Below are positions 27,666-48,912 of a stretch of 64,000 bases of DNA, one piece after another. A program made the position numbers and the translations under genes. The DNA is from Crocinitomicaceae bacterium (GTDB lineage: Bacteria; Bacteroidota; Bacteroidia; Flavobacteriales_D; Crocinitomicaceae): positions 124,001 to 188,000 of the forward strand of contig JAGOBK010000003.1 of assembly GCA_017983465.1 (NCBI GenBank). The letters are read 5' to 3'. The notes under the pieces were generated by a model. It saw only the letters and a list, made by a program, of their open reading frames with translations. It was not told the DNA's origin and searched no databases. Numbering within the stretch: position 1 is the first letter of the stretch; every line of letters begins with the position of its first letter.

Positions 27666-29681
27666 TTATGAACGTTTGCGGTCTCCACCGAACGATTTTC
27701 TTTCTCCGCGTGGACGATCTCCGCCCTCACTTTTACCGAATCCACCGCTGCGGCTAGATCCACCTGTGCTTCCTCCTTCAGAGCGACCAGCGTAACCACC
27801 GCCACCTGATCCACCAGAGCGACCAGCGTAACCGCCACCGCCTGATCCACCAGAACGACCTGCATAGCCTCCGCCACCAGAACCGCCTGAACGACCTGCG
27901 TAACCTCCGCCACCTGATCCACCTGATCCACCAGAACGACCTGCGTAACCGCCGCCACCTGATCCACCAGAACGACCTGAGAATCCACCGCCACCTGAGC
28001 GAGAATCACCTCCAAAACGTCCGCGTCCACGTCCGCCTTCGCTGCGACCTGATCCACCTTCTTTTTGTGCGGTTACTTCAATGTTTACTTGGTGACCTTC
28101 AAAGTCAGTTCCGTTTACATTTTTCAAGATTTTCTCTGTATGCTCTTGATCTGCCTCAAAGAATGAGTAAGAAGTCAATAAGTCAATGCGTCCAACTGCT
28201 TGAGAATTCAAACCTGTTGCATCACAAACAACTCTTAACAACGCTCCTGGATTCAATCCATCGCGTTTTCCAAGGTTTACGAAGAAACGTGTTTTTCCTT
28301 CCTCACGTGTACGATCAGATTTACCACCTTTTCCACGTTCTCCACCACGATCATCTCTTGCTGCAGCATTTAAATCTCCGGCGCGATCATAATAGTTAAT
28401 GAAACGATTGAATTCTGTAGAAACGAAACGTTTGATGATGTCTTCTTTCGACAAACTTTCGAATGCTTCCAAAATTTGCGGCATAAACTTCGCGATGTCG
28501 TCTTCTTTCACTTCCGTTGCAATGGTTTTGTTAATCAATTTCATCAACTGAATTTCACAAATTTCCTCTGCGTTTGGAATTTCACCAACGGTAAACGTTG
28601 TGCGCATTTGACGTTCGATGGCTTTAATCTTTCCAATCTCACGACCATTGATCAACACCAACGATTCACCTTTTTTACCAGCGCGAGCTGTACGACCACT
28701 TCGGTGCGTATAGTTCTCGATATCATCTGGTAAATTGTAATTGATGACATGTGTAATGTTATCAATATCAAGTCCACGTGCAGCAACATCTGTCGCTACT
28801 AGGATTTGTAATTCTTTTGAACGGAAACGATCCATCACACGATCACGCATTGCTTGCGTTAAATCTCCGTGTAAAGGTTCTGCGTTATATCCCTCGCGAC
28901 CTAATTTCTCAGCAACTGTTGCTGTTTCATTTTTGGTACGACAGAAAATCAATCCATAAATAGTTGGATTAAAATCGATCAAGCGTTTTACTGCTTCATA
29001 ACGATCACGTTCCTTCACCATATAATAGATGTGGTCGATGTTTTCGTTACTTTGATTTTTGTGTCCAATAGAAACCTCTAATGGATCGTGCATGTATGTT
29101 TTAGCAATACGCGCAACTTCCGTTGGCATTGTCGCTGAAAACAACCATACATTTTTATCGACTGGTGTTGTTTCCAAAACCGCATCAATATCTTCTTTGA
29201 ATCCCATGTTCAACATTTCATCTGCCTCATCTAGCACGACATAACGCACTTGAGATAGTTGAATGACTTTACGATTCATTAAATCAACAAGACGTCCAGG
29301 AGTAGCCACAATAATGGATGTTCCTTTCTTAATGTCCGTGATTTGTTTTCTGATATCCGTTCCTCCATATACCGCTGTAATGTTACAGTCAAGGTATTTA
29401 GCAAATACATTTAAGTCCTTCGCGATTTGCAAACAGAGTTCGCGAGTTGGACAAATGATCAAACCTTGTGGAAGTCTGGCTTTTGTATCGATGTTATTAA
29501 TTAACGGCAAGCCGAACGCTGCCGTTTTTCCTGTTCCTGTCTGCGCTAGGCCGACAAAGTCGCAATCCTCCTGCATCAGGTACGGAATTGCTTTTTCTTG
29601 GATGGGGGTCGGTGCTTCAAAACCCAATTCTGTTAACGACTTCAGCACCTCACTCCTCAATCCGAGCTCTTCAAATGTCAT
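27666..29681 (-). CDS. deaD: DEAD-box RNA helicase with DbpA-type RNA-binding domain and Gly/Arg repeat tail
   Basis: ATP-dependent RNA helicase of the CsdA/DeaD type, probably for ribosome assembly and cold adaptation. Core motifs are [11 protein letters not shown] near 46-56, PTRELC, VLDEADEML near 149-157, FSATMP, and HRSGRTARAG near 326-335. A DbpA RNA-binding domain lies near 455-540 (FFVNLGKRDGLNPGALLRVV). The tail, residues about 545-671, is a disordered region with six copies of a 12-15 residue unit, consensus GGGYAGRSGGSG. Such RGG-like tails bind RNA. At 671 residues it is longer than most relatives because of this tail. The promoter box TATCTTTG lies 22 bases upstream. Confidence 0.93.
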   Translation of the reverse strand: MTFEELGLRSEVLKSLTELGFEAPTPIQEKAIPYLMQEDCDFVGLAQTGTGKTAAFGLPLINNIDTKARLPQGLIICPTRELCLQIAKDLNVFAKYLDCNITAVYGGTDIRKQITDIKKGTSIIVATPGRLVDLMNRKVIQLSQVRYVVLDEADEMLNMGFKEDIDAVLETTPVDKNVWLFSATMPTEVARIAKTYMHDPLEVSIGHKNQSNENIDHIYYMVKERDRYEAVKRLIDFNPTIYGLIFCRTKNETATVAEKLGREGYNAEPLHGDLTQAMRDRVMDRFRSKELQILVATDVAARGLDIDNITHVINYNLPDDIENYTHRSGRTARAGKKGESLVLINGREIGKIKAIERQMRTTFTVGEIPNAEEICEIQLMKLINKTIATEVKEDDIAKFMPQILEAFESLSKEDIIKRFVSTEFNRFINYYDRAGDLNAAARDDRGGERGKGGKSDRTREEGKTRFFVNLGKRDGLNPGALLRVVCDATGLNSQAVGRIDLLTSYSFFEADQEHTEKILKNVNGTDFEGHQVNIEVTAQKEGGSGRSEGGRGRGRFGGDSRSGGGGFSGRSGGSGGGGYAGRSGGSGGSGGGGYAGRSGGSGGGGYAGRSGGSGGGGYAGRSGGSGGGGYAGRSEGGSTGGSSRSGGFGKSEGGDRPRGERKSFGGDRKRS
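27775..27990 (-). repeat. 36-bp-period in-frame tandem repeat coding the Gly/Arg tail
   Basis: Six diverged units of about 36 bases (one of 45) encode GGGYAGRSGGSG within the helicase gene. The period is a multiple of three, so changes in copy number keep the frame. The opposite strand carries a long open frame here only because of this composition. Confidence 0.8.
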
Positions 29682-29703
29682 CTTGTTATTTTAAATTTGG
29701 GTG

Positions 29704-29711
29704 CAAAGATA
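29704..29711 (-). promoter_or_regulatory. -7 promoter box for the DEAD-box helicase gene
   Basis: Minus-strand TATCTTTG, an exact TAnnTTTG match, 22 bases upstream of the ATG at 29681. Confidence 0.6.
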
Positions 29712-29876
29712 CACATAATAAAAGGATTAGTTGTTAATAAGTTGATTCTTAATGTTAAAAAACCATTAAACCTCTTAAATTGGAGCCATTTAGGTGGACG
29801 AAACACTCACATAGAACGACTAAGAACGAAAATACCTGTAAACAAAATTCATCTTGCTTTGTGTCGATATTCATCG

Positions 29877-29883
29877 TATCTTG
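29877..29883 (+). promoter_or_regulatory. -7-like promoter box at the sugar dehydrogenase start
   Basis: TATCTTG ends five bases before the ATG at 29889, with TTG (29854-29856) 20 bases upstream as a possible -33 element. It predicts a leaderless or nearly leaderless transcript and supports the 29889 start. Confidence 0.45.
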
Positions 29884-29888
29884 TCTTC

Positions 29889-31544
29889 ATGTTTTACATC
29901 CTACGATTTTTTTGTCTGTGCCTTTTGGTCCAAACATGTCTTCCTACCGTATTTGGACAACGAGTCACCTCGCTAAGACCTGATATTTCGGTAGATTCCA
30001 TCTTGAAAGCCAAGCCCGGCGCTTCCAAATTAGCTCTTGATCCCATCACAAAGCACCTTTTCTATACGAGTTCCAACGGAAATATCTACGAAGTTTTTGA
30101 GGCGAGTCAAAGTGACTCGTTACGTTTTACTGCGAATGACCATGGATTATCTCGTTTGCAAGGACTTTGCTTTTTGGACAGCACGATGTACCTCGCTGGA
30201 AACATTTGGTACAGTACAACAGGAATCGGGATGATAATGAAAGGAACGTTGCAAGCCAATGGATCAAGAGTTTGGACAAGCATGCTTGTGACAGAAGCGT
30301 ATCCGACAAGTAGTTCCACAGGTGACCATGGATTTACGGGAATCAATATCGATCCAAGCAAACAATTCCTCTATTTTTCAGGTGGATCACGGACATCCTT
30401 CGGTGAAGTGGAGAGCGCCAATGGGAATTACCCTGGAATGCGCGAGCAAGCCTTGACCAGTAAAATTTACCGAATTCCCATTCATGCAGAAAATCTTTAT
30501 TGGCCGAATGACTCCACTTTTTTGACGAATAGTGGATTCGTCTTTGCAGAAGGAACACGAAATGCCTACGACATGGCGTGGAATGCAGAGAATCATTTGT
30601 TTGCGGTGGATAATGCCGGGGAGCGAGATGATCCCGAAGAATTAAATTGGATTCAAGAAGGACAACATTATGGTTTTCCATGGAGAATCGGTGGAAATGC
30701 GAATCCACTGACGAATCCAAGTTATGATGCAAGTCAAGATCCATTGGTTAATCCGAACAACAGCGCATTTTTGGCTGGACATTTTAACGCGGACTCCAAC
30801 TTCCCTCCTATTCCAGCGGGAATTCAATTTACGGAACCATTGAGAAACTTCGGGAATGCGGCGGATTTTTACAAGGACGAAAATACTGGTCAAATTAAAC
30901 GCGCCAGTGAAGAAGGAACGAGCGTTCGGACTTTTACGCCACATCGTTCACCCCTCGGACTCGTAATTGACCGAGAGGAAGAACTTGGTTCCATCTATCA
31001 AGGAAAATCCTTTGTGATGAGTTTCATGCCTGGAGGCGACAGCACAGGTTACACTCCACTTTCTCCCTGGGGCACTCCTTGTCCATTTGTCGATTCCTCC
31101 CGCGAATTGGTCATGATGGACCTTCAATATGATTCCTTGATAGCAGATTACACGGTTCACAGTGCGAACATTGTGACTGGATTTTACCTTCCCGTAGATG
31201 CGGAACAAGTGGGGAATTCCATGTATGTGATCGAAAATAATGGAGTCTTATGGAAACTGAACTTTCCGAACAAATTGAATCCACCCATTTGTTATCAAGC
31301 TGGGCTCATTACTTATCCAAATCCTTTTTCAGCGACGTGTCAAGTTTATTTCCCGAATCCATCAAAACTGTTAATACGGATTAAACTTTACCAATCCAAT
31401 GGACAACTAGCCTACGAATCTGCTACATATGACCTCGATATTTACCAGCTTTCCGTAACCAATATCGCTGCAGGCGAATACACCCTTATTCTTGAACAAG
31501 GAACGGAAATACTCGCGCGTCAGAAGGTCATTATTTACGATTGA
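29889..31544 (+). CDS. PQQ-dependent sugar dehydrogenase-like T9SS cargo protein
   Basis: A 551-residue secreted protein of the glucose/sorbosone dehydrogenase (soluble PQQ beta-propeller) family. The ATG at 29889 begins a signal peptide (MFYILRFFCLCLLVQTC); a longer frame from 29697 would add a 64-residue non-family leader. Family signatures are RNAYDMAWNAENHLFAVDNA near 220-240 and EELNWIQEGQHYGFPWRIGG, the usual ELN-x-x-x-x-G-x-x-YGWP block. The last 85 residues are a T9SS type A sorting domain (ITYPNPFSATCQVYF), predicting surface exposure. Substrate and PQQ use cannot be verified. A promoter-like TATCTTG box lies five bases before the start. Confidence 0.82.
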   Translation: MFYILRFFCLCLLVQTCLPTVFGQRVTSLRPDISVDSILKAKPGASKLALDPITKHLFYTSSNGNIYEVFEASQSDSLRFTANDHGLSRLQGLCFLDSTMYLAGNIWYSTTGIGMIMKGTLQANGSRVWTSMLVTEAYPTSSSTGDHGFTGINIDPSKQFLYFSGGSRTSFGEVESANGNYPGMREQALTSKIYRIPIHAENLYWPNDSTFLTNSGFVFAEGTRNAYDMAWNAENHLFAVDNAGERDDPEELNWIQEGQHYGFPWRIGGNANPLTNPSYDASQDPLVNPNNSAFLAGHFNADSNFPPIPAGIQFTEPLRNFGNAADFYKDENTGQIKRASEEGTSVRTFTPHRSPLGLVIDREEELGSIYQGKSFVMSFMPGGDSTGYTPLSPWGTPCPFVDSSRELVMMDLQYDSLIADYTVHSANIVTGFYLPVDAEQVGNSMYVIENNGVLWKLNFPNKLNPPICYQAGLITYPNPFSATCQVYFPNPSKLLIRIKLYQSNGQLAYESATYDLDIYQLSVTNIAAGEYTLILEQGTEILARQKVIIYD

Positions 31545-31622
31545 CCCTCACTTATCATCAACTTATTTCGTTCATTATACAACATGAAATAAAAAAGCAA
31601 CGTTTACATAGACTAAATTTCC

Positions 31623-31630
31623 TATTTTTG
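31623..31630 (+). promoter_or_regulatory. -7 promoter box for the DUF5606 gene
   Basis: TATTTTTG matches TAnnTTTG, 20 bases before the ATG at 31651, in the 106-base gap after the sugar dehydrogenase gene. Confidence 0.55.
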
Positions 31631-31650
31631 ACCCAAATTAAAACGAACAC

Positions 31651-32196
31651 ATGAATCTGACAGGTATCATTTCCATCTCTGGTAGACCAGGACTATTTAA
31701 AGTTATCGCTCAAGGAAAAAACAGCGTGATTGTTGAATCCATGATTGACAAAAAACGTTTTCCAGCATACGCTACGGAGAAAATTTCAACATTGGAGGAC
31801 ATTAGCATTTTCACGTATGAGGAAGATGTGAAATTGACCGAAGTGTTGGCAAAAATGAATGAATCGTTTACAGATAATTGTCCATCTCACAAGGAGGACA
31901 TGAAAACATTAGAGTCTGCATTAGCAACATTCTTACCAAATTGGGACAAAGAACGCGTATATCCATCTGATGTGCGTAAAATTTTCCAATGGTATCACTT
32001 AATCAAACAAGCTGGATTATTTGAAGCAACAGCAGAAGGTGCCGAAGGTACGGAAGCGCCAGCGAAAGAAGCGAAAGTAAAAGCAGAACCTGCAAAGAAA
32101 AAAGCAGCAGCAACAGCAGGTCCAGCAAAAGCAGCGAAACCAGCAAACATCAAAAAGGCAGCTCCTGTTAAAACAGGAAGTTCTCGCGGAAAATAA
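31651..32196 (+). CDS. DUF5606-like protein with Ala/Lys/Pro-rich tail
   Basis: A 181-residue cytosolic protein. The N-terminal 120 residues (MNLTGIISISGRPGLFKVIA ... KNSVIVESMIDKKRFPAYA ... ISTLEDISIFTYEEDVKL) match the DUF5606 family of Bacteroidota, of unknown function; the SH3-like opening suggests binding to protein or nucleic acid. The last 60 residues are a disordered basic tail rich in Ala, Lys and Pro. The tail composition is similar to that of bTHX at 6972. It is monocistronic or linked to pepF 72 bases downstream, with a terminator between. Confidence 0.8.
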   Translation: MNLTGIISISGRPGLFKVIAQGKNSVIVESMIDKKRFPAYATEKISTLEDISIFTYEEDVKLTEVLAKMNESFTDNCPSHKEDMKTLESALATFLPNWDKERVYPSDVRKIFQWYHLIKQAGLFEATAEGAEGTEAPAKEAKVKAEPAKKKAAATAGPAKAAKPANIKKAAPVKTGSSRGK

Positions 32197-32212
32197 TATC
32201 ATCTTTCATTTT

Positions 32213-32249
32213 AAAAATTCACCTGTCCAATCGTCAGGTGAATTTTTTT
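32213..32249 (+). terminator. Terminator after the DUF5606 gene
   Basis: AAATTCACCTG and CAGGTGAATTT pair perfectly around a 9-base loop and are followed by a T-tract. Confidence 0.88.
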
Positions 32250-32268
32250 GTCCTAACATTACGTTCAC

Positions 32269-33978
32269 ATGATCATCGAGAAAAACAAACGTCAATTCCT
32301 AAACGAAGACTTAAACATTCAATCTTGGGAAGATTTAAAACCATACTTCGACGATTTACTCGCACGAGAAATCGATAGCAAGCAGAAATTTGAGCGTTGG
32401 TTGAATGACCGCAGCGAATTAGATGCCGTGCTCGAGGAAGACCTCGCTTGGCGCTACATTCGCATGTCCATTGAGACAAGCAACGAAGAACTGGCATCTG
32501 CCTACACGTTTTTTGTGACGAAAATTCAACCGGAGTTAGCTCCATTAGACGATGCCTTGAATCGAAAATTCATGGACTCCCCTTTCCGCAACGACTACAC
32601 GGATTCCGCCCATCAAATTTACTTTAGAAGCATTGAAACACAGGTAAATTTATTCCAGGAGAAAAACGTTCCCATTGAGGCAGAACTGAACGAATTGGCT
32701 CAAAAGTATGGAGCCATCAGTGCGGCGCAGTCGATTGACTACCTCGGCGAAACGATGACTATGCAGAAGGCGAGTCAATTGTTGAAAGAGCAGGATGAGG
32801 CGGTACGTCAAACTGTATTCGATAAAATGGTGGAGCGACGTCGCGTCGACACAGACTCCTTAGACGAATTGTATACGCAGTTAGTCACGAAACGACATGC
32901 ATTAGCATTAAACGCTGGATTTGACAATTTCCGAGATTACAAATTTCAAGCACTCGGACGCTTTGATTACTCCAAAGAAGATTGTTTTGCGTTCCATCAC
33001 GCCATTAAAACGCACATTGTTCCGCTTGTGAAAGACATTCAAGCGAAAAAATTAGCGATTACCGGTGAGACGAAATTCAAACCGTGGAATACCGAAGTAG
33101 ATCCAGAAGGAAAAGCGCCATTAAAACCGTTTGAAACGGGCAAAGAGATGTTAGATGGTTGCATTCAGATGTTAGGAAACTTGAATTCTTATTTTGCTGA
33201 CTGTTTGAAAACCATGGAAGAAATGGGTCACTTGGACCTAGACTCCAAAGCAGGAAAAGCGCCGGGCGGATACAATTATCCACTGTATGAAATTGGCGTT
33301 CCCTTTATTTTCATGAATGCCGTTGGAGCGCAGCGTGATTTAGTGACAATGGTTCACGAAGCGGGACATGCCGTTCATTCGTTTTTAAGTCGAGACTTGT
33401 CCCTCACTGGATTCAAGAATCTACCATCCGAAGTTGCAGAATTAGCATCGATGTCCATGGAGTTACTTTCCATGAAGGAATGGGGACATTTCTATGCCAA
33501 CGCAGACGATTTGAACCGCGCGAAACGTGAGCAGTTAGAAGGTGTGTTGAAAGTACTGCCATGGATTGCCCAAATCGACGCTTTCCAGCATTGGGTATAT
33601 GAAAATCCAACGCATACAATTTCAGAACGACATGCACATTGGTCGAGTTTATCCAAAGACTTTGGAACAGGATTAACTGATTGGACCGGATACGAAGATC
33701 AAATCGCCACATCCTGGCAGCGACAATTGCACTTATTCGAAGTTCCTTTTTACTACATTGAGTATGGCATAGCGCAATTGGGTGCTTTGGGCGTGTGGAT
33801 GAACAGTTTAACAGACTTCGAGTCCGGATTAACAGCCTACCAAGAAGCCTTGAAACTTGGTTACACGAAGTCCATACCAGAAATTTATGAAACGTCTAAC
33901 GTTCCGTTTGACTTCTCTTCCGAGCGACTAAAATCCTTAGCAGCATTCATTCAGGAAGAATTAAAAAAATTGAACTAG
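32269..33978 (+). CDS. pepF: M3-family oligoendopeptidase (PepF-like)
   Basis: Cytosolic zinc metallopeptidase that cuts short peptides. The 569-residue protein shows the M3 catalytic HEAGHAVHSF near residues 362-371, with HExxH zinc histidines, and the third ligand Glu in SEVAELASMSMELL about 25 residues later. No signal peptide is present. The region YEIGVPFIFMNAVGAQRD just before the active site is typical. The ATG at 32269 lies 19 bases after the preceding terminator, so it has its own short promoter region. The tRNA array follows. Confidence 0.92.
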   Translation: MIIEKNKRQFLNEDLNIQSWEDLKPYFDDLLAREIDSKQKFERWLNDRSELDAVLEEDLAWRYIRMSIETSNEELASAYTFFVTKIQPELAPLDDALNRKFMDSPFRNDYTDSAHQIYFRSIETQVNLFQEKNVPIEAELNELAQKYGAISAAQSIDYLGETMTMQKASQLLKEQDEAVRQTVFDKMVERRRVDTDSLDELYTQLVTKRHALALNAGFDNFRDYKFQALGRFDYSKEDCFAFHHAIKTHIVPLVKDIQAKKLAITGETKFKPWNTEVDPEGKAPLKPFETGKEMLDGCIQMLGNLNSYFADCLKTMEEMGHLDLDSKAGKAPGGYNYPLYEIGVPFIFMNAVGAQRDLVTMVHEAGHAVHSFLSRDLSLTGFKNLPSEVAELASMSMELLSMKEWGHFYANADDLNRAKREQLEGVLKVLPWIAQIDAFQHWVYENPTHTISERHAHWSSLSKDFGTGLTDWTGYEDQIATSWQRQLHLFEVPFYYIEYGIAQLGALGVWMNSLTDFESGLTAYQEALKLGYTKSIPEIYETSNVPFDFSSERLKSLAAFIQEELKKLN

Positions 33979-33996
33979 AAATAAATTCTGTGTGAA

Positions 33997-34029
33997 TTTG
34001 CGCAGATTTTAAATTTCTCTTTATATTTG
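33997..34029 (+). promoter_or_regulatory. Promoter of the tRNA-CAT locus
   Basis: TTTG at 33997-34000 and TATATTTG at 34022-34029 are separated by 21 bases, close to the ideal Bacteroidota -33/-7 arrangement. It lies directly upstream of the first broken tRNA copy, so the transcript would cross all three broken copies before reaching the intact tRNA. Confidence 0.7.
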
Positions 34030-34037
34030 CACCCTCC

Positions 34038-34100
34038 GGCGAGATAGCTCATCCGCCGCTTCGCCGCGGCGAAGGAGGTTAGAGCGTAGAAATATTAGAT
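34038..34100 (+). pseudogene. Broken 5' tRNA copy 1 with 25-nt palindromic insert
   Basis: The first 14 bases (GGCGAGATAGCTCA) and then GGTTAGAGCGTAG equal the intact tRNA at 34205, but a 25-nt GC-rich sequence (34052-34076) replaces the D-loop GTT, and everything after the D stem is missing. The insert holds the perfect 16-nt palindrome CTTCGCCGCGGCGAAG (34059-34074). It ends with AAATATTAGAT, which also precedes the real tRNA. Confidence 0.85.
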
Positions 34101-34152
34101 GGCGAGATAGCTCATCCGCCGCGGCGGAGGTTAGAGCGTAGAAATATTAGAT
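34101..34152 (+). pseudogene. Broken 5' tRNA copy 2 with 14-nt palindromic insert
   Basis: A 52-base unit identical to copy 3. The D-loop GTT is replaced by the perfect palindrome TCCGCCGCGGCGGA (34115-34128). It keeps the acceptor 5' strand and D stem but lacks the anticodon arm, T arm and 3' acceptor strand, so it cannot be a working tRNA. Confidence 0.85.
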
Positions 34153-34204
34153 GGCGAGATAGCTCATCCGCCGCGGCGGAGGTTAGAGCGTAGAAATATT
34201 AGAT
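34153..34204 (+). pseudogene. Broken 5' tRNA copy 3 with 14-nt palindromic insert
   Basis: Exact repeat of the 52-base unit before it, palindrome at 34167-34180, ending directly at the first base of the intact tRNA. Confidence 0.85.
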
Positions 34205-34278
34205 GGCGAGATAGCTCAGTTGGTTAGAGCGTAGGATTCATAACCCTAAGGTCCCGAGTTCAACTCTCGGTCTCGCTA
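34205..34278 (+). tRNA. tRNA with CAT anticodon (Met, or Ile if lysidine-modified)
   Basis: A 74-base cloverleaf can be drawn: acceptor GGCGAGA with TCTCGCT (first pair G-U), D stem GCTC/GAGC, anticodon stem TAGGA/CCCTA with loop TTCATAA, variable AGGTC, T stem CCGAG/CTCGG with loop TTCAACT, and discriminator A. CCA is not encoded. Elongator Met is most likely, because initiator features (C1-A72 mismatch, three G-C pairs in the anticodon stem) are absent. tRNA-Ile(CAT) cannot be excluded from sequence alone. Confidence 0.93.
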
Positions 34279-34283
34279 CATTG

Positions 34284-34314
34284 AAAACCCTGACAGGAAT
34301 GTTGGGGTTTTTTT
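34284..34314 (+). terminator. Terminator after the tRNA
   Basis: AAAACCCTGAC pairs with GTTGGGGTTTT (with G-U wobbles) and leads into seven T residues. Confidence 0.75.
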
Positions 34315-34320
34315 ATGGAA

Positions 34321-34338
34321 TTAACTCTCGGTCTCCCT
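34321..34338 (+). repeat. Short degenerate copy of the tRNA 3' end
   Basis: TTAACTCTCGGTCTCCCT nearly repeats the T-loop, T-stem and acceptor 3' strand of the tRNA (TTCAACTCTCGGTCTCGCT). It follows the first terminator and has no other tRNA parts. It could be a relic of a second tandem tRNA or an attachment-site-like duplication. Confidence 0.65.
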
Positions 34339-34370
34339 GATTAGTCTGCGACTATCAGGATAAACGCTAC

Positions 34371-34402
34371 AAAAGCCCAGACAATTTGTCTGGGCTTTTT
34401 TT
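34371..34402 (+). terminator. Second terminator of the tRNA locus
   Basis: AGCCCAGACAAA is not matched base for base in the loop region, but AGCCCAGACAA/TTGTCTGGGCT forms a near-perfect stem with T-tract, 93 bases after the tRNA. Two terminators in series fit an ancestral multi-tRNA transcript. Confidence 0.85.
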
Positions 34403-34462
34403 ATGCCCATTTTTTCTATCCAAACAAATCTTCGTACTTTCACTCTCATTGAAAATTCCCCT

Positions 34463-34894
34463 ATGATGAGAACATTGCTCTTAACTTGCCTGAGTTTGTT
34501 GATTTCTTTCCACTTTTTTGGACAAGCACCCACCTACAATCTCACCGACAAAGTTTCTGGAATTGCGGTGAAAAAAGGAATGGTTGAGTTTGGACTCTTT
34601 CGGGATGCGGAAAAGTTCACGAAAATTGGGGGCACGTATCGCATGTTGCGCGTGAAAGTCGATGCTGCTGAGGAAACGGTCACTTTCCATAACCTACCAA
34701 AAGGAAAATACGCGGTTTGCATCTACCTCGATGAAAACAACAACAATCAATGTGACAAAAATTTCTTTGGGATTCCAACGGAACGATTTGCGTTCTCCAA
34801 CAATTTAAGACCGATGTTAAGCGCTCCTTCGTTTGAAGCTTGTTCCGTTTATTTAAACGAGAATAAGTCCATTGTGATTCGAGCGGACTATTAA
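34463..34894 (+). CDS. DUF2141-like secreted protein
   Basis: A 143-residue exported protein. The ATG at 34463 opens a signal peptide (MMRTLLLTCLSLLISFHFFG); the longer frame from 34403 begins inside the previous terminator. The DUF2141 signature is clear: GMVEFGLFRDAEKF, then YLDENNNNQCDKNFFGIPTE and RFAFSNN. Members are small beta-sandwich periplasmic or surface proteins of unknown function. It is followed 9 bases later by another secreted protein gene, so the pair is probably an operon. Confidence 0.82.
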   Translation: MMRTLLLTCLSLLISFHFFGQAPTYNLTDKVSGIAVKKGMVEFGLFRDAEKFTKIGGTYRMLRVKVDAAEETVTFHNLPKGKYAVCIYLDENNNNQCDKNFFGIPTERFAFSNNLRPMLSAPSFEACSVYLNENKSIVIRADY

Positions 34895-34903
34895 TTTTGA
34901 TAC

Positions 34904-35476
34904 ATGAAATCAGTTCTTCTTATTTGCACACTTTTAACCGGAATTTTTGAACTTTCAGCCCAAGATTACCGCATTCATTTTCTTCAAGATGGAAAAGAGA
35001 TTCCTGTCCTCGATGAAAAAGTTCTGTTAGCGAAAAAACCGTTTCAAATTCAAGTCGAACTATTGAAGGTGGAAGGTGTGTATGGTTCCTGCTCCCTGAG
35101 CGATTCGCTTTTTCGCATTCCACTGAATCAATCCTTACCGGAAACGGACCTCATCCAATGGAAAATTGCGGTTGAACCGGAGTTCAATAAGGATCAGGAC
35201 ATCATCGTTTCCAAAGATGGATACTTCTACTGGTTTTACAATCCAAAGGTAGATAAATGGCATCGCTTTGACCCGAATCCAAAAGTGGAAAAAGGACGTG
35301 TGATAGGAACAAAAACGATTTCAAACCTCTTCATTTCGGAGGATTTCAACAGCGACACGAAAACACTAGCGTTGTCCGAAGTCAACGAACCACTCTACCT
35401 GCTTTTCTTTTTGATGGATGATAAAAACAAAAAGGAATCCAAGCGGATTCGCGTTCAAATTGAGTGGACAAACTAA
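34904..35476 (+). CDS. Secreted hypothetical protein
   Basis: A 190-residue protein with a signal peptide (MKSVLLICTLLTGIFELSAQ) and no family I recognise. The mature part looks like beta structure: DYRIHFLQDGKEIPVLDEK, GYFYWFYNPKVDKWHRFDPN and a closing RIRVQIEWTN. It has only one cysteine-containing segment (GSCSLSD). It sits behind the DUF2141-like gene with a 9-base gap, suggesting co-expression at the cell envelope. Confidence 0.65.
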   Translation: MKSVLLICTLLTGIFELSAQDYRIHFLQDGKEIPVLDEKVLLAKKPFQIQVELLKVEGVYGSCSLSDSLFRIPLNQSLPETDLIQWKIAVEPEFNKDQDIIVSKDGYFYWFYNPKVDKWHRFDPNPKVEKGRVIGTKTISNLFISEDFNSDTKTLALSEVNEPLYLLFFLMDDKNKKESKRIRVQIEWTN

Positions 35477-35500
35477 ACGCCACTCATTTTCTTTCTCGAT

Positions 35501-36466
35501 TTACGAAAACGTTTGGATGACAAAAAAGTAAATAGGCATGCCAATGATGATGTTCATCGGAAAGGTTACCCCTAATGCCATCGGGACATAAAGTCCAGGG
35601 TCTGCCTGAGGTGCTGCCAACTTCATGGCTGCCGGAACAGCAATATACGAGGCGCTACTCGCCAAAATGGAGAAGATAAAACGATCTCCAAGATCAGGCG
35701 TAACGAAACCACTGATCATTGCCACCAGAATTCCATTGAACAAGGGCATCAGCAAGGCGAAGAGAAAGGAAAAACGTCCATGACTCAAGAAGGCATTGAA
35801 GCGACTCGCAGTAGTCATTCCCATTTTCAGCAAGAAAATCGCTAGGAATCCTTTGAAAATATCCGTCGTAAAGTGCTGAATATCGACTGCTTGTTTTCCA
35901 TCTGATAAGAATCCTATAAACAAACTTCCTACAAGCATTAAGACACTTCCGTTTGTCAATGAGTGTTTGATGATTCCAGCTAAACTAGAGGATTCTTTTG
36001 TTTTCGTTTCGAACCTCATCATCAGTAAAACGCCAACAATAATCGCTGGGACTTCCATAATCGCCATGACCGCGACCATGTGACCGCTGAAGGTTAATTT
36101 AACGGTTTCTAAAAAACTGGAAGCAGCAACGAAGGTCACAGCGCTCACCGATCCGTAGGACGCCGCAATCGCACCGGCATTTGCGACACTTAACTTGCGT
36201 TTCAGAATGAAAAATGAATAAATTGGAATCACCGCAGCGATTGCGATACCGAATAAGATGGCGTAAAGGACACCCGCATTAAAATCGTGATGCGCCAATT
36301 CTTGCCCTCCCTTAAATCCTATGGAAAAAAGTAGGTACAGTGAAATGAACTTAAAGGACGACTCTGGAATATCCAAGTCACTTTTAACCATGACCGCAAT
36401 AATTCCCAGAATGAAAAAAAGCAAGGTTGGATTAGTGAAATTTGTTAGAAGTAAATCTATGTTCAT
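35501..36466 (-). CDS. sbtA: SbtA-like sodium-dependent bicarbonate permease
   Basis: A 321-residue membrane protein with about ten helices of the SbtA (DUF897) family; cyanobacterial SbtA takes up bicarbonate with sodium. The ATG at 36466 (MNIDLLLTNFTNPTLLFFIL) is the family-typical start and lies one base after the pyrC stop. Family landmarks are KFISLYLLFSIGFKGGQEL and GAIAASYGSVSAVTFVAA. The cognate PII-like SbtB is not adjacent. In a heterotroph the likely use is bicarbonate for anaplerotic carboxylation or for carbamoyl phosphate, which fits its coupling to a pyrimidine gene; this is inference. Confidence 0.85.
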   Translation of the reverse strand: MNIDLLLTNFTNPTLLFFILGIIAVMVKSDLDIPESSFKFISLYLLFSIGFKGGQELAHHDFNAGVLYAILFGIAIAAVIPIYSFFILKRKLSVANAGAIAASYGSVSAVTFVAASSFLETVKLTFSGHMVAVMAIMEVPAIIVGVLLMMRFETKTKESSSLAGIIKHSLTNGSVLMLVGSLFIGFLSDGKQAVDIQHFTTDIFKGFLAIFLLKMGMTTASRFNAFLSHGRFSFLFALLMPLFNGILVAMISGFVTPDLGDRFIFSILASSASYIAVPAAMKLAAPQADPGLYVPMALGVTFPMNIIIGMPIYFFVIQTFS

Positions 36467-36467
36467 A

Positions 36468-37823
36468 TTATCTATTTTTTTCAAATGTTAATCGACTTCC
36501 AGCGCTAAATTCATGCGCTTTGTCGTGTGAATGCACTAAATTCCCATTGACAAACGTATGTTCAATGCGAGACCGAAAGGTTCTTCCTTCAAAGGGCGAC
36601 CATCCGCATGTATAGTGTAGGTTCGCTGCAGTGACTGTGGTTTCGTGTTGTAAATCCACCAAAACCAAATCCGCAAAATATCCTTCTCGGATGTATCCCC
36701 GGTCTGGAATTCGGTAAATTTCTGCTACGTGATGACTGGTTTTTTGAACAATTTTCTCCAACGTCATTTGTCCTCGGTGATAAAACTCGAATAACGCCAA
36801 CAAGGCTTCTTGCACCAAAGGTCCACCCGATTTGGCTTGATCGTAGTTCCCGGTCTTTTCTTCCCATGTGTGCGGTGCATGATCTGTTGCAATGATGTCA
36901 AGGACGTCCTCGTTGAGCGCTTTCAATAATCCGTGATTATCATCCGCAGATTTAATTGAAGGATTCCACTTTATACGGTTTCCAAGCTGCGCATAGTCTT
37001 CTTCGTTAAAAAACAAGTGATGGACACAAGCCTCCGCTGTGATGCGTTTGGAACGAATATCACCAGCATACTTCGTTAATAAGTCCGCCTCTTCTTTTGT
37101 GGAAATATGGAAAAGATGCAATCTGTTCTGATGTTTTTCGGCTAATTCCAAGACACGTTTGGTCGCTTGGACACACGCTTCCGTTGGACGGATTTTGGAA
37201 TGGTATTCGCAGGGAATATCAGAACCGAATTGTTTTGTGTAAAATGCTTTGTTCGCGTTTATGATGGCATCATCCTCTGAATGCAAGGCAATGAGGGATT
37301 CTGATCGAGAAAATAAGGATTCAAGGAACTCCGGATAGTTTGCGAGAATTCCTTCATCGTTGTGAAAATAGAGTCCATCGTCGGTAATGCCACACACGCG
37401 TTCATTATCGATGCGCAACGCTACTTCTAAATTGTCCTTGGAAATCCCCATGAAGAAAGAGTAATTCGCCCAAGAGGTCTGACTGGCCAGTTGGTATTTC
37501 TCTTCAAGCAGCTCATTCGTCAATACATTCGGCAAGGTATTTGGCATTTCCATGAACGAGGTGATTCCACCAGCAACAGCGGCCTTGGATTCTGAATGAA
37601 TGGTTGCTTTGTGTGTCAATCCCGGTTCTCTAAAGTGGACTTGATCATCAATCATTCCTGGAATCAACAACAGTCCGTCTGCGTGAATTTCACGAACCTT
37701 TTCGTTTTCCGGCAAGGTAATGTGCTGAGCTATTTTCTCTATTCGTTGACGATGGATGAGCACATCAGCCACCGTTTGTGTGTTTTCGTTAATGATGCGT
37801 GCTTGACGTATGATTGTTTTCAA
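36468..37823 (-). CDS. pyrC: Dihydroorotase
   Basis: Zinc amidohydrolase that cyclises carbamoyl aspartate to dihydroorotate, third step of pyrimidine synthesis. The 451-residue protein has the metal motif DQVHFREPG near residues 59-67, EMPNTLPN, the HxxH region HLFHIST near 236-242 and the catalytic ATDHAPHTWEEK near 313-324. This is the class I dihydroorotase form. Upstream, the DUF6671-like gene ends 12 bases before its start; downstream, sbtA begins one base after its stop. It is the third gene of a four-gene operon. Confidence 0.94.
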   Translation of the reverse strand: MKTIIRQARIINENTQTVADVLIHRQRIEKIAQHITLPENEKVREIHADGLLLIPGMIDDQVHFREPGLTHKATIHSESKAAVAGGITSFMEMPNTLPNVLTNELLEEKYQLASQTSWANYSFFMGISKDNLEVALRIDNERVCGITDDGLYFHNDEGILANYPEFLESLFSRSESLIALHSEDDAIINANKAFYTKQFGSDIPCEYHSKIRPTEACVQATKRVLELAEKHQNRLHLFHISTKEEADLLTKYAGDIRSKRITAEACVHHLFFNEEDYAQLGNRIKWNPSIKSADDNHGLLKALNEDVLDIIATDHAPHTWEEKTGNYDQAKSGGPLVQEALLALFEFYHRGQMTLEKIVQKTSHHVAEIYRIPDRGYIREGYFADLVLVDLQHETTVTAANLHYTCGWSPFEGRTFRSRIEHTFVNGNLVHSHDKAHEFSAGSRLTFEKNR

Positions 37824-37835
37824 ATTCTGATAAGT

Positions 37836-38672
37836 TTAAGGATTACAGGCTGGACAAAACGTTGGTTCTTCCGTTTGTCGTCCATTTGGAAAATGCACTT
37901 CCTCTTGATGCTGGCAAGCAGCACACGTCAATACGTGTTTTAAGACCGAGGACGTCGGCGTTTCACAAATCCAACATGGTAGTCCAGGTAAAACGGAAGT
38001 CACCCCGTAACAAGGCATTTCACACGATGGACAAAGAACCTTTAGTTGGGTTATTAATTTGAGGGTAAGTTGTTCAATGTGTTTCATCCGAAGTGGATTG
38101 TGCATGGCACGCATGTCCGTTTCGACGAATACGTTGTCATGCCTGCGCATGCACACGCGGAAGGCAGTTAACAGTTCATCCCAATCGTTGATTCCCTTTT
38201 TTAGGTACAACATGGACTGCTCTTCATTTCGAAGAATAATCGCTTGATTCGGGAAGTCGATGGATTCACCAAAGGCGATAAGCTCCTCTTCGCTCTTAAT
38301 TTTCTTTCCTTGGAAATTTGTTTCCGTCGTCAGGATTCGGGCGGAGAAAGAAACGTTGTTCTTAAAGTCCATGAGTAAGATGAGCTCATCATGCGCTGCG
38401 CAAAAAGGCAAGTCCGGATGTGCACCGAAGGATCCTTCTGTCGCAATCACCAAATCACAGCCTGTGACTTCAAATCCTAGTTGGCACTTCGCTTTTAAGG
38501 TATCTACAGGACTTTGACTCCGTTCGATTTCCCCAGAGAACGTTCCAAACTGATCCGTATTGAACATGGGTATGGAAAAGCTATTCACGTTTAGTTCACG
38601 CTCCAAAATGGGTTGAATGGCCGATTCCTTTCGGTGATTCGTCGCAATAAATAAAGATCTTCCTTCGAACAT
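37836..38672 (-). CDS. DUF6671-like protein with C-terminal zinc-ribbon cysteines
   Basis: A 278-residue cytosolic protein of the DUF6671 family, unknown function. The N-terminus reads LFIATNHRKESAIQPILERE, with DQFGTFSGEIER and GCDLVIATEGSFGAHPDLPF conserved-looking blocks and a central ETDMRAMHNPLRM near residue 183. The last 65 residues have four CxxC or CxxxC pairs (CPSCEMPC, CWICETP, CAACQ, CPACNP), forming one or two zinc ribbons. Its place between a small protein gene and pyrC in one operon hints at nucleotide or carbon metabolism, nothing more. Confidence 0.75.
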   Translation of the reverse strand: MFEGRSLFIATNHRKESAIQPILERELNVNSFSIPMFNTDQFGTFSGEIERSQSPVDTLKAKCQLGFEVTGCDLVIATEGSFGAHPDLPFCAAHDELILLMDFKNNVSFSARILTTETNFQGKKIKSEEELIAFGESIDFPNQAIILRNEEQSMLYLKKGINDWDELLTAFRVCMRRHDNVFVETDMRAMHNPLRMKHIEQLTLKLITQLKVLCPSCEMPCYGVTSVLPGLPCWICETPTSSVLKHVLTCAACQHQEEVHFPNGRQTEEPTFCPACNP

Positions 38673-38675
38673 TTT

Positions 38676-38960
38676 TTAGTCTAACACTTCGATTTCGATG
38701 GTAGAATGAATTTTGATTCTTTTGGCTTGCGTTGCAGGACTAGTAATGAGTTGCAGGATTTCATTCCTTGCATTTTGTAGCTCCAAGAGACGTTTTTTAG
38801 ACCCTGAATCTAGGGTCGCATTTTTCTCCCAAAGACTCAGTGAATCTACCGAGTGAAATTGTATTTTTTTGGAGATGACATTCAGTAATAATTCCTTCGC
38901 ATCCTCCGGAGAAAATTCACCTGTAATAAACTTTATTTCTAATTTTTTCTCGTTTTCCAT
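38676..38960 (-). CDS. Small hypothetical protein at operon start
   Basis: A 94-residue cytosolic protein that I do not recognise. It reads MENEKKLEIKFITGEFSPED, then a helical middle with SKKRLLELQNARNEILQLI, and a final beta strand IKIHSTIEIEVLD. It lies 3 bases before the DUF6671-like gene and divergent from lysR, so it is likely the first gene of the four-gene operon. The closeness and codon use support that it is real. Confidence 0.65.
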   Translation of the reverse strand: MENEKKLEIKFITGEFSPEDAKELLLNVISKKIQFHSVDSLSLWEKNATLDSGSKKRLLELQNARNEILQLITSPATQAKRIKIHSTIEIEVLD

Positions 38961-39081
38961 GAGCTCTGATTTTTCGTTTTTTTACATCAGCTTCGTCCTA
39001 CAAAGGAACAAGCGTGCAAAATTCCCTTTTTTAATTCATAGTTTTTTATTTATATTTATCCATTATTCATTAAATATATTT

Positions 39082-39990
39082 ATGAACTTTACCTTAAATC
39101 AACTACGTATCTTTTTAAAGGTTGTTGAAACGAGAAGCATCACCAAGGCTTCACAGGAATTGGCGCTTTCTCAACCTGCGGTATCGATTCAATTGAAAAA
39201 TTTTCAAGCTCAATTTGACGTTCCACTAACCCAATTGATCAATCGTAGACTTTTTATTACCGATTTCGGACATGAAATAGCGGCTTTGGCGGAAAAGATT
39301 GTGAGTGAGGTCAATGAAATCAATTATCAAACAGCATTGTACAACGGACAACTCGCTGGAAAACTTCACATCTCAGTGGTGTCCACCGGAAAGTATGTCA
39401 TCCCCTATTTCCTGAGTGATTTCCTTGCAGCAAACCCGAATATTGATTTGAAACTTGATGTGAGTAACAAGGCACAAGTTATCGCCGATTTGACGGAAAA
39501 TTCCGTCGATTTTTCCTTGGTTTCTACCTTGCCAAGCGACCTAAACTTGGAGAAAATCACCTTAATGAAAAACGAGCTATACCTGGTGTGTCATGCTAAA
39601 TTTGATACGGAAGGAATAAAGAGCATGAATGACCTCCCGAAAAACATTCCCTTTATCTACCGTGAACTTGGATCAGCGACGCGCTCAGCGATGGAGCAAT
39701 ACATCGAAAAGCAAGGAATTTCCGTACAGAAGAAATTAGAACTAACGTCCAACGAAGCAGTAAAGCAGGCGGTTATCGCCAACATGGGACTTTCGATTAT
39801 GCCCATAATTGGTATTCGACAAGAACTTCAAACGAAGCAACTGAAAATCATTCAAATGGATAGTTTACCACTAGAAACGAATTGGCACATTGTATGGAAT
39901 CGTGGCACACGTCTTACGCCTAGTGCCAAAGCATTCGTTGAACACTTGGAGCAGAATAAAAGCAGCATCATCCAAACGTATTTTTCCTGA
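39082..39990 (+). CDS. LysR-type transcriptional regulator
   Basis: A 302-residue LysR regulator with the ATG at 39082 (MNFTLNQLRIFLKVVETRSI), chosen because the family always starts a few residues before the helix-turn-helix; the longer frame from 38869 would overlap the divergent operon. The HTH spans about 3-62 (ITKASQELALSQPAVSIQLK) and the effector domain 90-295 (LHISVVSTGKYVIPYFLSDF). It is divergent from the four-gene operon with a 121-base shared region, the classic LysR layout. Relatives of CbbR/CmpR regulate sbtA in cyanobacteria, so control of this sbtA operon is a reasonable inference. Confidence 0.88.
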   Translation: MNFTLNQLRIFLKVVETRSITKASQELALSQPAVSIQLKNFQAQFDVPLTQLINRRLFITDFGHEIAALAEKIVSEVNEINYQTALYNGQLAGKLHISVVSTGKYVIPYFLSDFLAANPNIDLKLDVSNKAQVIADLTENSVDFSLVSTLPSDLNLEKITLMKNELYLVCHAKFDTEGIKSMNDLPKNIPFIYRELGSATRSAMEQYIEKQGISVQKKLELTSNEAVKQAVIANMGLSIMPIIGIRQELQTKQLKIIQMDSLPLETNWHIVWNRGTRLTPSAKAFVEHLEQNKSSIIQTYFS

Positions 39991-48782: not shown

Positions 48783-48912
48783 ATTAGCAAATTAGTCCAT
48801 TAGCACATTAGTCCTCCGCCACGGCGGAAGCAAATTAGCACATTAAACCATTAGCATATTAGCACATTAGCACATTAAACCATTAGCACATTAAACCATT
48901 AGCACATTAAAC
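48783..48912. repeat. AT-rich ATTAGCACATTAAACC repeat tract with one GC palindrome
   Basis: Imperfect tandem units of about 8 and 16 bases (ATTAGCAC, CATTAGCACATTAAAC) fill most of the gap after gmhA. One GC-rich palindrome is embedded at 48813-48828. The last unit runs into the stop codon of the permease gene at 48907. No gene is present in this stretch. Confidence 0.85.
48813..48828. repeat. GC-rich palindrome CCTCCGCCACGGCGGA
   Basis: Same sequence, on the opposite strand and with one base changed, as the inserts in the tRNA pseudo-array (reverse complement CCTCCGCCGCGGCGGA). All share the extra CC before the symmetric 14-mer. Its GC content stands out against the AT-rich tract. Confidence 0.75.

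Follow-up and report, generated by a model that had tools for sequence, protein, structure and literature searches.

Why should a tRNA gene lie behind several broken copies of its own 5' end, each with part of its D-loop given over to a palindrome? The question is raised by a tRNA-Met(CAT) gene in a 64,000-nucleotide stretch of Crocinitomicaceae DNA (here called the window), where an earlier note had described upstream units of 63, 52 and 52 bases that each begin with the exact first 14 bases of the tRNA and carry palindromes of 25, 14 and 14 bases instead of GTT, followed by the intact tRNA; reading of the locus confirmed all of these points. Its features, in window coordinates, are as follows:

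34022..34029, + strand: promoter -7-like element TATATTTG, placed alike before the tRNA in relatives without units (e.g., L083)
34038..34100, + strand: unit 1, 63 nt; tRNA nucleotides 1-14, 25-nt hairpin, GGTTAGAGCGTAG, spacer AAATATTAGAT
34052..34076, no strand assigned: 25-nt nested palindrome of unit 1, TCCGCCGC-TTCGCCGCGGCGAA-GGA
34101..34152, + strand: unit 2, 52 nt; palindrome TCCGCCGCGGCGGA at 34115-34128
34153..34204, + strand: unit 3, 52 nt; palindrome TCCGCCGCGGCGGA at 34167-34180
34205..34279, + strand: intact tRNA-Met(CAT), Rfam tRNA 68.1 bits; elongator type by exclusion
34284..34314, + strand: terminator-like hairpin and T run after the tRNA (read and folded)
34323..34370, + strand: 3' partial tRNA copy; AACTCTCGGTCT, hairpin CCCTGATTAGTCTGCGACTATCAGG (34335-34359), ATAAA, CGCTAC (34365-34370)
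34371..34402, + strand: second terminator-like hairpin and T run (read)

The tRNA-Met locus in the window and in relatives

In the units the first 30 bases of the tRNA-Met(CAT) gene are repeated in tandem. All three start with GGCGAGATAGCTCA, identical to tRNA nucleotides 1-14, have GTT (G15-U16-U17) swapped for a palindrome, and continue with GGTTAGAGCGTAG and an identical 11-nt spacer, AAATATTAGAT, which ends each unit and was absent from the earlier description. The unit 1 palindrome reads as the 14-mer TCCGCCGCGGCGGA with its GGC swapped for another 14-mer, TTCGCCGCGGCGAA, and a close variant of the whole 25-nt palindrome is intergenic on contig C11 (L002). The upstream element TATATTTG is presumably promoter-like, as judged by the Bacteroidota TAnnTTTG motif. 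Anticodon CAT is present in three loci among the 30 source-genome tRNA loci that were fetched (32 matches); L050 is the initiator-like CAT tRNA of this genome, and L040 (C4-G69, C5-G68) we take from its determinants to be probably tRNA-Ile2, so the window gene is by exclusion the elongator tRNA-Met. The 3' fragment that had been noted downstream is real, but the 18 bases allotted to it are too few, as a hairpin, ATAAA and CGCTAC follow; it is probably what remains of a longer copy such as L083 and L256 have downstream. Between 33500 and 34900 no Rfam family except tRNA scored above its gathering score, and other matches were below the cut-off.

Short-read assembly can be misled by repeats, the contig of genome G037 breaks inside its array, and a copy number of exactly three is present in one assembly only. 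However, a search of related genomes for the same units, which the earlier note had proposed, found them in independent genomes, and many independent assemblies hold units of the same make with different flanks and different tRNAs; assembly error is therefore very unlikely as the source of the units, and we give an artefact a probability close to nil. In the source genome itself, copies of the tRNA start lie upstream of 4 of 33 tRNA genes, against a shuffle mean of 0.05 genes.

The M3 peptidase encoded beside the locus (Pfam PF01432) has its nearest named relatives, at most 97% identical, in Flavobacteriales/Crocinitomicaceae-labelled MAGs. Across the window and its relatives the number of units at tRNA-Met is 0, 1, 2 or 3: close relatives have none (L083, L084, L113, L086 and L087), one (L089 and L152) or two (L085 and L129, with at least two in L088, where the contig ends), and eight more distant relatives have none (L094, L095, L099-L103 and L105). 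The neighbour protein of L083 is 97% identical, yet this locus has no upstream units; its longer downstream copy has hairpins in the D-loop, T-loop and acceptor stem. On a weakly supported peptidase tree of 19 rows the unit label changes 4-5 times in bootstrap trees and is unclustered (278 of 500 shuffles were as low), and a clean history of gain or loss at tRNA-Met was dropped because tree support was too poor.

Partial copies and hairpins at other tRNA genes

Over all loci, 5' copies were found at 11 tRNA types in several genera, namely elongator Met, initiator Met, Ile2, Ala-GGC, Arg-TCT, Arg-CCT, Arg-TCG, Arg-ACG, Gly-GCC, Val-TAC and Leu-GAG. A similarity search of 86 genus genomes returned the same architecture at tRNA-Ala(GGC) in 10 genomes, and palindrome searches gave the initiator Met, Arg-TCT, Arg-ACG, Gly and Val cases, other genera of the family included. 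Of the 399 order genomes, 21 contain the sequence TAGCTCATCCGCC, and 15 of these belong to the window's genus; L243 is a true tRNA-Arg case in another genus, and the remaining five matches have no nearby tRNA and were judged to be chance.

A census was also made in which loci were not chosen by palindrome: tRNA genes were found with the Rfam model and their first 12 nt were sought, with up to two mismatches, in the 250 nt upstream, other (ARAGORN) tRNAs being masked, which hides full-length copies, and only the 30 loci returned being used for G072 and G087. In four family genomes 12 of 137 tRNA genes have 5' copies (4/33 in the source genome, G000, 3/33 in G045, 3/32 in G072 and 2/39 in G198), where the shuffle means sum to 0.6; the G045 Arg-TCT copies counted here are without a palindrome. 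Outside the family, G103 (another family) has 0 of 30 and G087 (a third family) 3 of 31, these three being an Ala copy with a D-loop hairpin, an Arg-ACG copy that is seemingly self-closing and one that is chance-like. Shuffle means per genome range from 0.05 to 0.40 for 5' copies and from 0 to 0.05 for 3' copies, which were found downstream of five genes in G000 (of 33), six in G045, three in G072, two in G198, three in G103 and two in G087.

The source-genome 5' copies comprise the three tRNA-Met units (TCCGCC type), one Ile2 unit (TCCCGTAACGACGGGA), three Arg-CCT units (TTCCGAAGAATCGGAA, the most upstream one decayed) and one Arg-TCG unit with an imperfect hairpin. The Ile2 unit differs little among G000, G045 and G072 (L040 on C2, L334 and L427, respectively). 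Each Arg-CCT unit (L049, on C11 of G000) has TATCTTTG inside it, which we take from its motif to be a -7-like promoter element, and this array may also be a tandem promoter array. In the initiator-Met units L168, L177, L181 and L436 the anticodon stem is largely kept and the CAT anticodon is lost from the loop.

The D-loop and T-loop are the two partners that form the tRNA elbow. In a sample of 186 distinct tRNA genes, assembled before the G072 and G087 loci were fetched and biased in that many loci were found through a palindrome or window similarity, the D-arm is in register in none of 46 5' copies (17-nt region, up to two mismatches; a few entries are doubtful, such as L276 Pro at -211 and L284 Gly at -119), and the T-arm, by the in-register test, is not retained in 32 of 35 3' copies, at least one of which (L364 Ala) is chance-like. 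The three exceptions are L006, where the copy is longer and it is the D-loop that has a palindrome, L376, whose T-loop TTCGA has become TTTGA, and L357, which retains the full T-arm. The Arg-ACG 5' copy of G087 has mismatches at only 3 of 17 D-arm bases. In most 5' copies the 3' side of the D-arm can still be read after the hairpin (GGTTAGAGC, GGCTAGAG and others), so plain truncation does not explain the loss of the D-arm. Of 48 5' copies, 37 have perfect inverted repeats of at least 6 bp and 42 have ones of at least 5 bp, the corresponding numbers among 119 control windows being 15 and 47, in a sample that also preceded the G072 and G087 loci, shares the doubtful entries and is enriched by the many loci fetched by palindrome. 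The hairpin sequences at this one place vary: TCCGCCGCGGCGGA, TCCCGTAACGACGGGA, TTCCGAAGAATCGGAA, TGCCGANNNNTCGGCA, TTCCGCAGTTGCGGAA and CCACC...GGTGG all occur there.

These observations suggest a rule, that tRNA genes tolerate adjoining broken copies, which are fairly frequent in this group but almost never have a working D- or T-loop. The reading that we tentatively favour, judging from the sequences and well short of conviction, is that the ends of tRNA genes are locally duplicated and that the copies persist when the elbow-forming loop is destroyed. Partial copies would arise through local duplication or slippage of tRNA gene ends, and their hairpins would for the most part stem from the dispersed palindromes of the family. 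A copy whose D- or T-loop still works would be harmful, since in a chimeric fold it could engage RNase P or modifying enzymes, and would be lost; a hairpin in the D-loop would block a false tRNA elbow between the partial copy and the RNA of the intact tRNA. The recurrence at 11 tRNA types, the lack of an in-register D-arm in all 46 5' copies, the mirror image at 3' ends, the variety of hairpins, the census without palindrome choice, the invariant palindrome arms (below) and the patchy copy number support this. Against it, equilibrium folding predicts no consistent protective effect of the hairpin (below), L357 keeps its T-arm, and the Arg-ACG copy of G087 comes close to a full D-arm.

Repeated partial copies of an RNA gene can also be left by mobile elements, and in Dehalococcoides genomic islands, many with an integrase module, leave 20-bp direct repeats of the ssrA 3' end (PMC3146451). 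Those repeats, arrayed partial copies of an RNA gene as here, bound genomic islands, and the parts of that report available to us describe no hairpin in them. Repeated integration and loss of elements that target tRNA ends would leave such scars at attachment sites, and the 3' ends of the tRNAs studied here are such targets: GIY-YIG ORFs (PF01541) lie between the tRNA and its 3' copy at tRNA-Phe (L037) and adjoin tRNA-Met in L086, L011 and L013, and a phage-integrase-like ORF is downstream of tRNA-Met in L005. We nonetheless regard this origin as highly doubtful. The 5' units of the window are separated by 11-nt spacers only, an integrase domain is present in none of the 10 ORFs of 27666-39987, and site-specific recombination leaves the hairpins unexplained; by eye, the spacers of L168, L243 and L288 look like the leader of the tRNA itself, which is not so in the window. 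The tRNA-Phe locus itself has two identical tandem 81-aa GIY-YIG ORFs downstream of the tRNA (L037 1617-2191, on C13 of G000), and after the first of these comes a 3' copy of tRNA-Phe with TCCGCCGCGGCGGA in place of the T-loop TTC; this ORF and 3' copy together look like a tiny tRNA-end element.

Origin of the palindromes

The main rival to local duplication with loss of elbow-competent copies, which we consider possible though on balance rather unlikely, puts insertion first: a mobile palindrome prefers the loops of tRNA genes, a hit in a loop is lethal unless unequal duplication leaves an intact tRNA adjoining the damaged part, and no benefit from the hairpin is needed. Its first support is that the commonest hairpin, TCCGCCNNGGCGGA, is a dispersed palindrome of the window's family, with 27 copies in the source genome against 0 for a reversed control; 90 of the 399 order genomes have it, high counts (up to 75) being confined to the window's family and counts outside it being 0-2, like the control. 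The first-listed palindrome copies, moreover, lie in 5' tRNA copies at 8 of 30 loci from the genus, where 43 genomes had matches, and at 6 of 29 order loci. Its second support is a habit of replacement. When contexts with 10-nt flanks were compared, one mismatch being allowed per flank, 28 of 67 had no empty counterpart, and in 28 of the other 39 the 14-mer exactly replaces 3 nt (GTT, ATT, TGA and others), 12 of these being in tRNA copies and 16 elsewhere; this count carries no shuffle control. In five of the other 11 contexts the empty counterpart has 11 nt, consistent with 3 nt plus one 8-nt word.

Several points stand against insertion first. The unrelated hairpins (Ile2, Arg-CCT and the CCACC type) need another source; the tRNA segment replaced, measured by eye, varies from 3 nt (Met, Ala, Leu and one Arg) to about 6-9 nt (initiator Met, other Arg and Val); and no mobilising gene was found, the RAYT of the source genome being flanked by a different palindrome, CCGCGGGATTGCAAATCCCGCGG, and not by the 14-mer (eight transposase loci were inspected in all). 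PF01797 gave no match in some of the palindrome-bearing genus genomes, namely G015 (93% complete), G056 (66%) and G063 (80%), and with the other palindromes at the source RAYT this led us to reject RAYT as the mover. The locus L227 (C13 of G000), a 189-aa RAYT-like gene between copies of CCGCGGGATTGCAAATCCCGCGG at 619-641 and 1524-1546, resembles a REPtron, one belonging to another palindrome family. REP/BIME and CGTC palindromes are short, GC-rich, dispersed, RAYT-linked and sometimes inside other palindromes, according to the parts of PMC3733652 available to us. The palindromes studied here are likewise short, GC-rich and dispersed and sometimes nested in other palindromes, but the window-family palindrome is without a GTAG/CGTC end (no such constant end tag was seen on reading the flanks of 67 contexts plus 69 non-tRNA contexts), the RAYT of its own genome carries another palindrome, and its copies are also in the D- and T-loops of partial tRNA copies, often replacing 3 nt. 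Long GGACTCC/CGACTCC palindrome arrays surround IS200-type transposase matches in L228 (G078) and L232 (G074).

The earlier note had explained the locus by palindrome insertion followed by unequal crossing-over. This fits the copy number of 0-3, the unit-free L083 and the habit of replacing 3 nt, but it is not the whole story, given the other tRNA genes, the different hairpins and the 3' mirror image. One array bears directly on the order of events. In the Arg-TCT array of G045, which breaks two contigs (L176 on C17 and L341 on C43), one copy has TCCGCCCCGGCGGA and several do not, and a single deletion spanning the palindrome separates the hairpin-less copies from the neighbouring copy. They thus resemble deletion derivatives, and may be descendants, of palindrome copies, as insertion first has it, and the case for deletion as a separate way of breaking the D-loop is weaker accordingly. 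This finding lowered slightly our confidence in the loss of copies with working elbows and raised slightly that in insertion first.

Conservation of the hairpins can be read in more than one way. In 21 Met and Ala units the palindrome arms have 0 minority letters of 252, the two-base apex 7 of 42 (Fisher p about 8e-7) and the tRNA-derived parts 14 of 515 (p about 0.007 against the arms); the units were chosen by hairpin class, a bias to perfect arms, and the two 25-mer units and non-14-mer hairpins were excluded. The invariant arms could reflect fresh insertion or self-correction of the palindrome and not selection, and a palindrome with a preference for tRNA loops could, with no selection at all, produce a largely similar picture. 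The data do not decisively separate the two readings. If selection is the cause, these loci would amount to evidence from genomes that tRNA halves astray in a shared transcript do harm where nothing blocks the elbow, and would offer a natural experiment on how tRNAs fold and how faithful RNase P is; if insertion preference is the cause, they would point to an unknown route by which 14-base palindromes spread by replacing three bases.

Two further ideas about the palindromes were rejected. That they lie at hairpin apices everywhere is at odds with a mean flank pairing of -5.27 against -5.13 for permuted flanks in 69 non-tRNA contexts (73 of 300 permutations were as low; 41 tRNA-like and 7 near-duplicate contexts were excluded), although flank stems of at least 7 bp number 6 against 1.8 expected (permuted maximum 7). 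The type-B palindrome is not a second dispersed family, occurring in only 5 of 86 genomes and being tRNA-linked in 3. Intergenic arrays of 8-nt words (ATTAGCAC and AGTGAACA types) are present at window position 48815 and in L224, L223 and L220 (C12, C10 and C2 of G000, respectively), and there the palindrome often stands in place of ATT/AAT or TGA, mostly in the same word phase (by eye).

Known systems and predicted folding

In the literature searched, which was thin on subscription papers, we found partial 5' copies of tRNAs bearing D-loop hairpins nowhere described. Rickettsia palindromic elements are mobile palindromes that enter genes; they are much longer than the window-family palindromes, and we know of no tRNA-end arrays among them. 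The tyrT repeats of E. coli (rtT RNA) follow a tRNA in tandem, each with the 3' end of that tRNA, and the repeated 3' end at 34323-34370 and those at 5 of 33 source-genome tRNA genes are alike in this; the tyrT repeats are known from the 3' side only and are not known to include 5' copies or D-loop hairpins, and no Rfam family of this kind was matched at the window locus, where only tRNA scored above the gathering score. The repetitive hairpin-forming elements of sponge mitochondria, some inside rRNA genes, share a conserved stem with a variable loop and the formation of double or multiple hairpins (PMC2800124); they are mitochondrial, and the portion of that paper available to us does not tie them to partial tRNA copies.

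Do the units act on the tRNA as RNA? The earlier note had suggested that the broken copies could compete in folding. Equilibrium folding supports this: the 3' acceptor strand is predicted to pair upstream of the tRNA in all six loci folded, with mean probabilities of 0.50-1.00 (0.80 in the window, where unit 2 is the partner in the minimum-energy fold), and the tRNA preceded by 15 nt has native acceptor pairing of 0.64-1.00 in these loci. The palindromes, which the note had placed in these decoys, are not their cause, since with native loops put into the copies the upstream pairing persists at 0.68-0.98 in five loci and 0.27 in Arg-CCT. Native acceptor pairing is predicted to be higher with the hairpin in three of the six loci (0.18 vs 0.09, 0.44 vs 0.04 and 0.13 vs 0.01) and lower in three (0.00 vs 0.04, 0.00 vs 0.05 and, for Arg-CCT, 0.01 vs 0.72), and given this mixed outcome the hairpin as a protection of acceptor pairing was dropped; such folding treats secondary structure, whereas the elbow effect is tertiary, and co-transcriptional order lies outside the model.

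A functional leader RNA, in which units co-transcribed with the tRNA would work either as decoys that mimic a tRNA or as a folding switch, and so tune its maturation, seems to us unlikely. The position of the units between a promoter-like element and the tRNA and the predicted upstream pairing in six of six loci speak for it, as does the Ile2 unit, which folds much more stably than its shuffles and is little changed in three genomes; the patchy presence of units among close relatives, the modest folding of the window unit alone, the lack of any Rfam match besides tRNA at its cut-off and the merely putative transcription of the units speak against it. We think it distinctly unlikely that they form a new class of RNA element, that is, elbow-capped arrays of tRNA halves at the start or end of tRNA transcripts that compete for the acceptor strand as a folding switch on maturation, the hairpin preventing their processing as tRNA. 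Compared with shuffles, the window unit alone has a modest z of -1.3, and the Ile2 unit a z of -5.7, closing on itself via a 10-bp stem. That unit has a 10-nt complement of its own acceptor and D-stem start, and one long hairpin is predicted for it.
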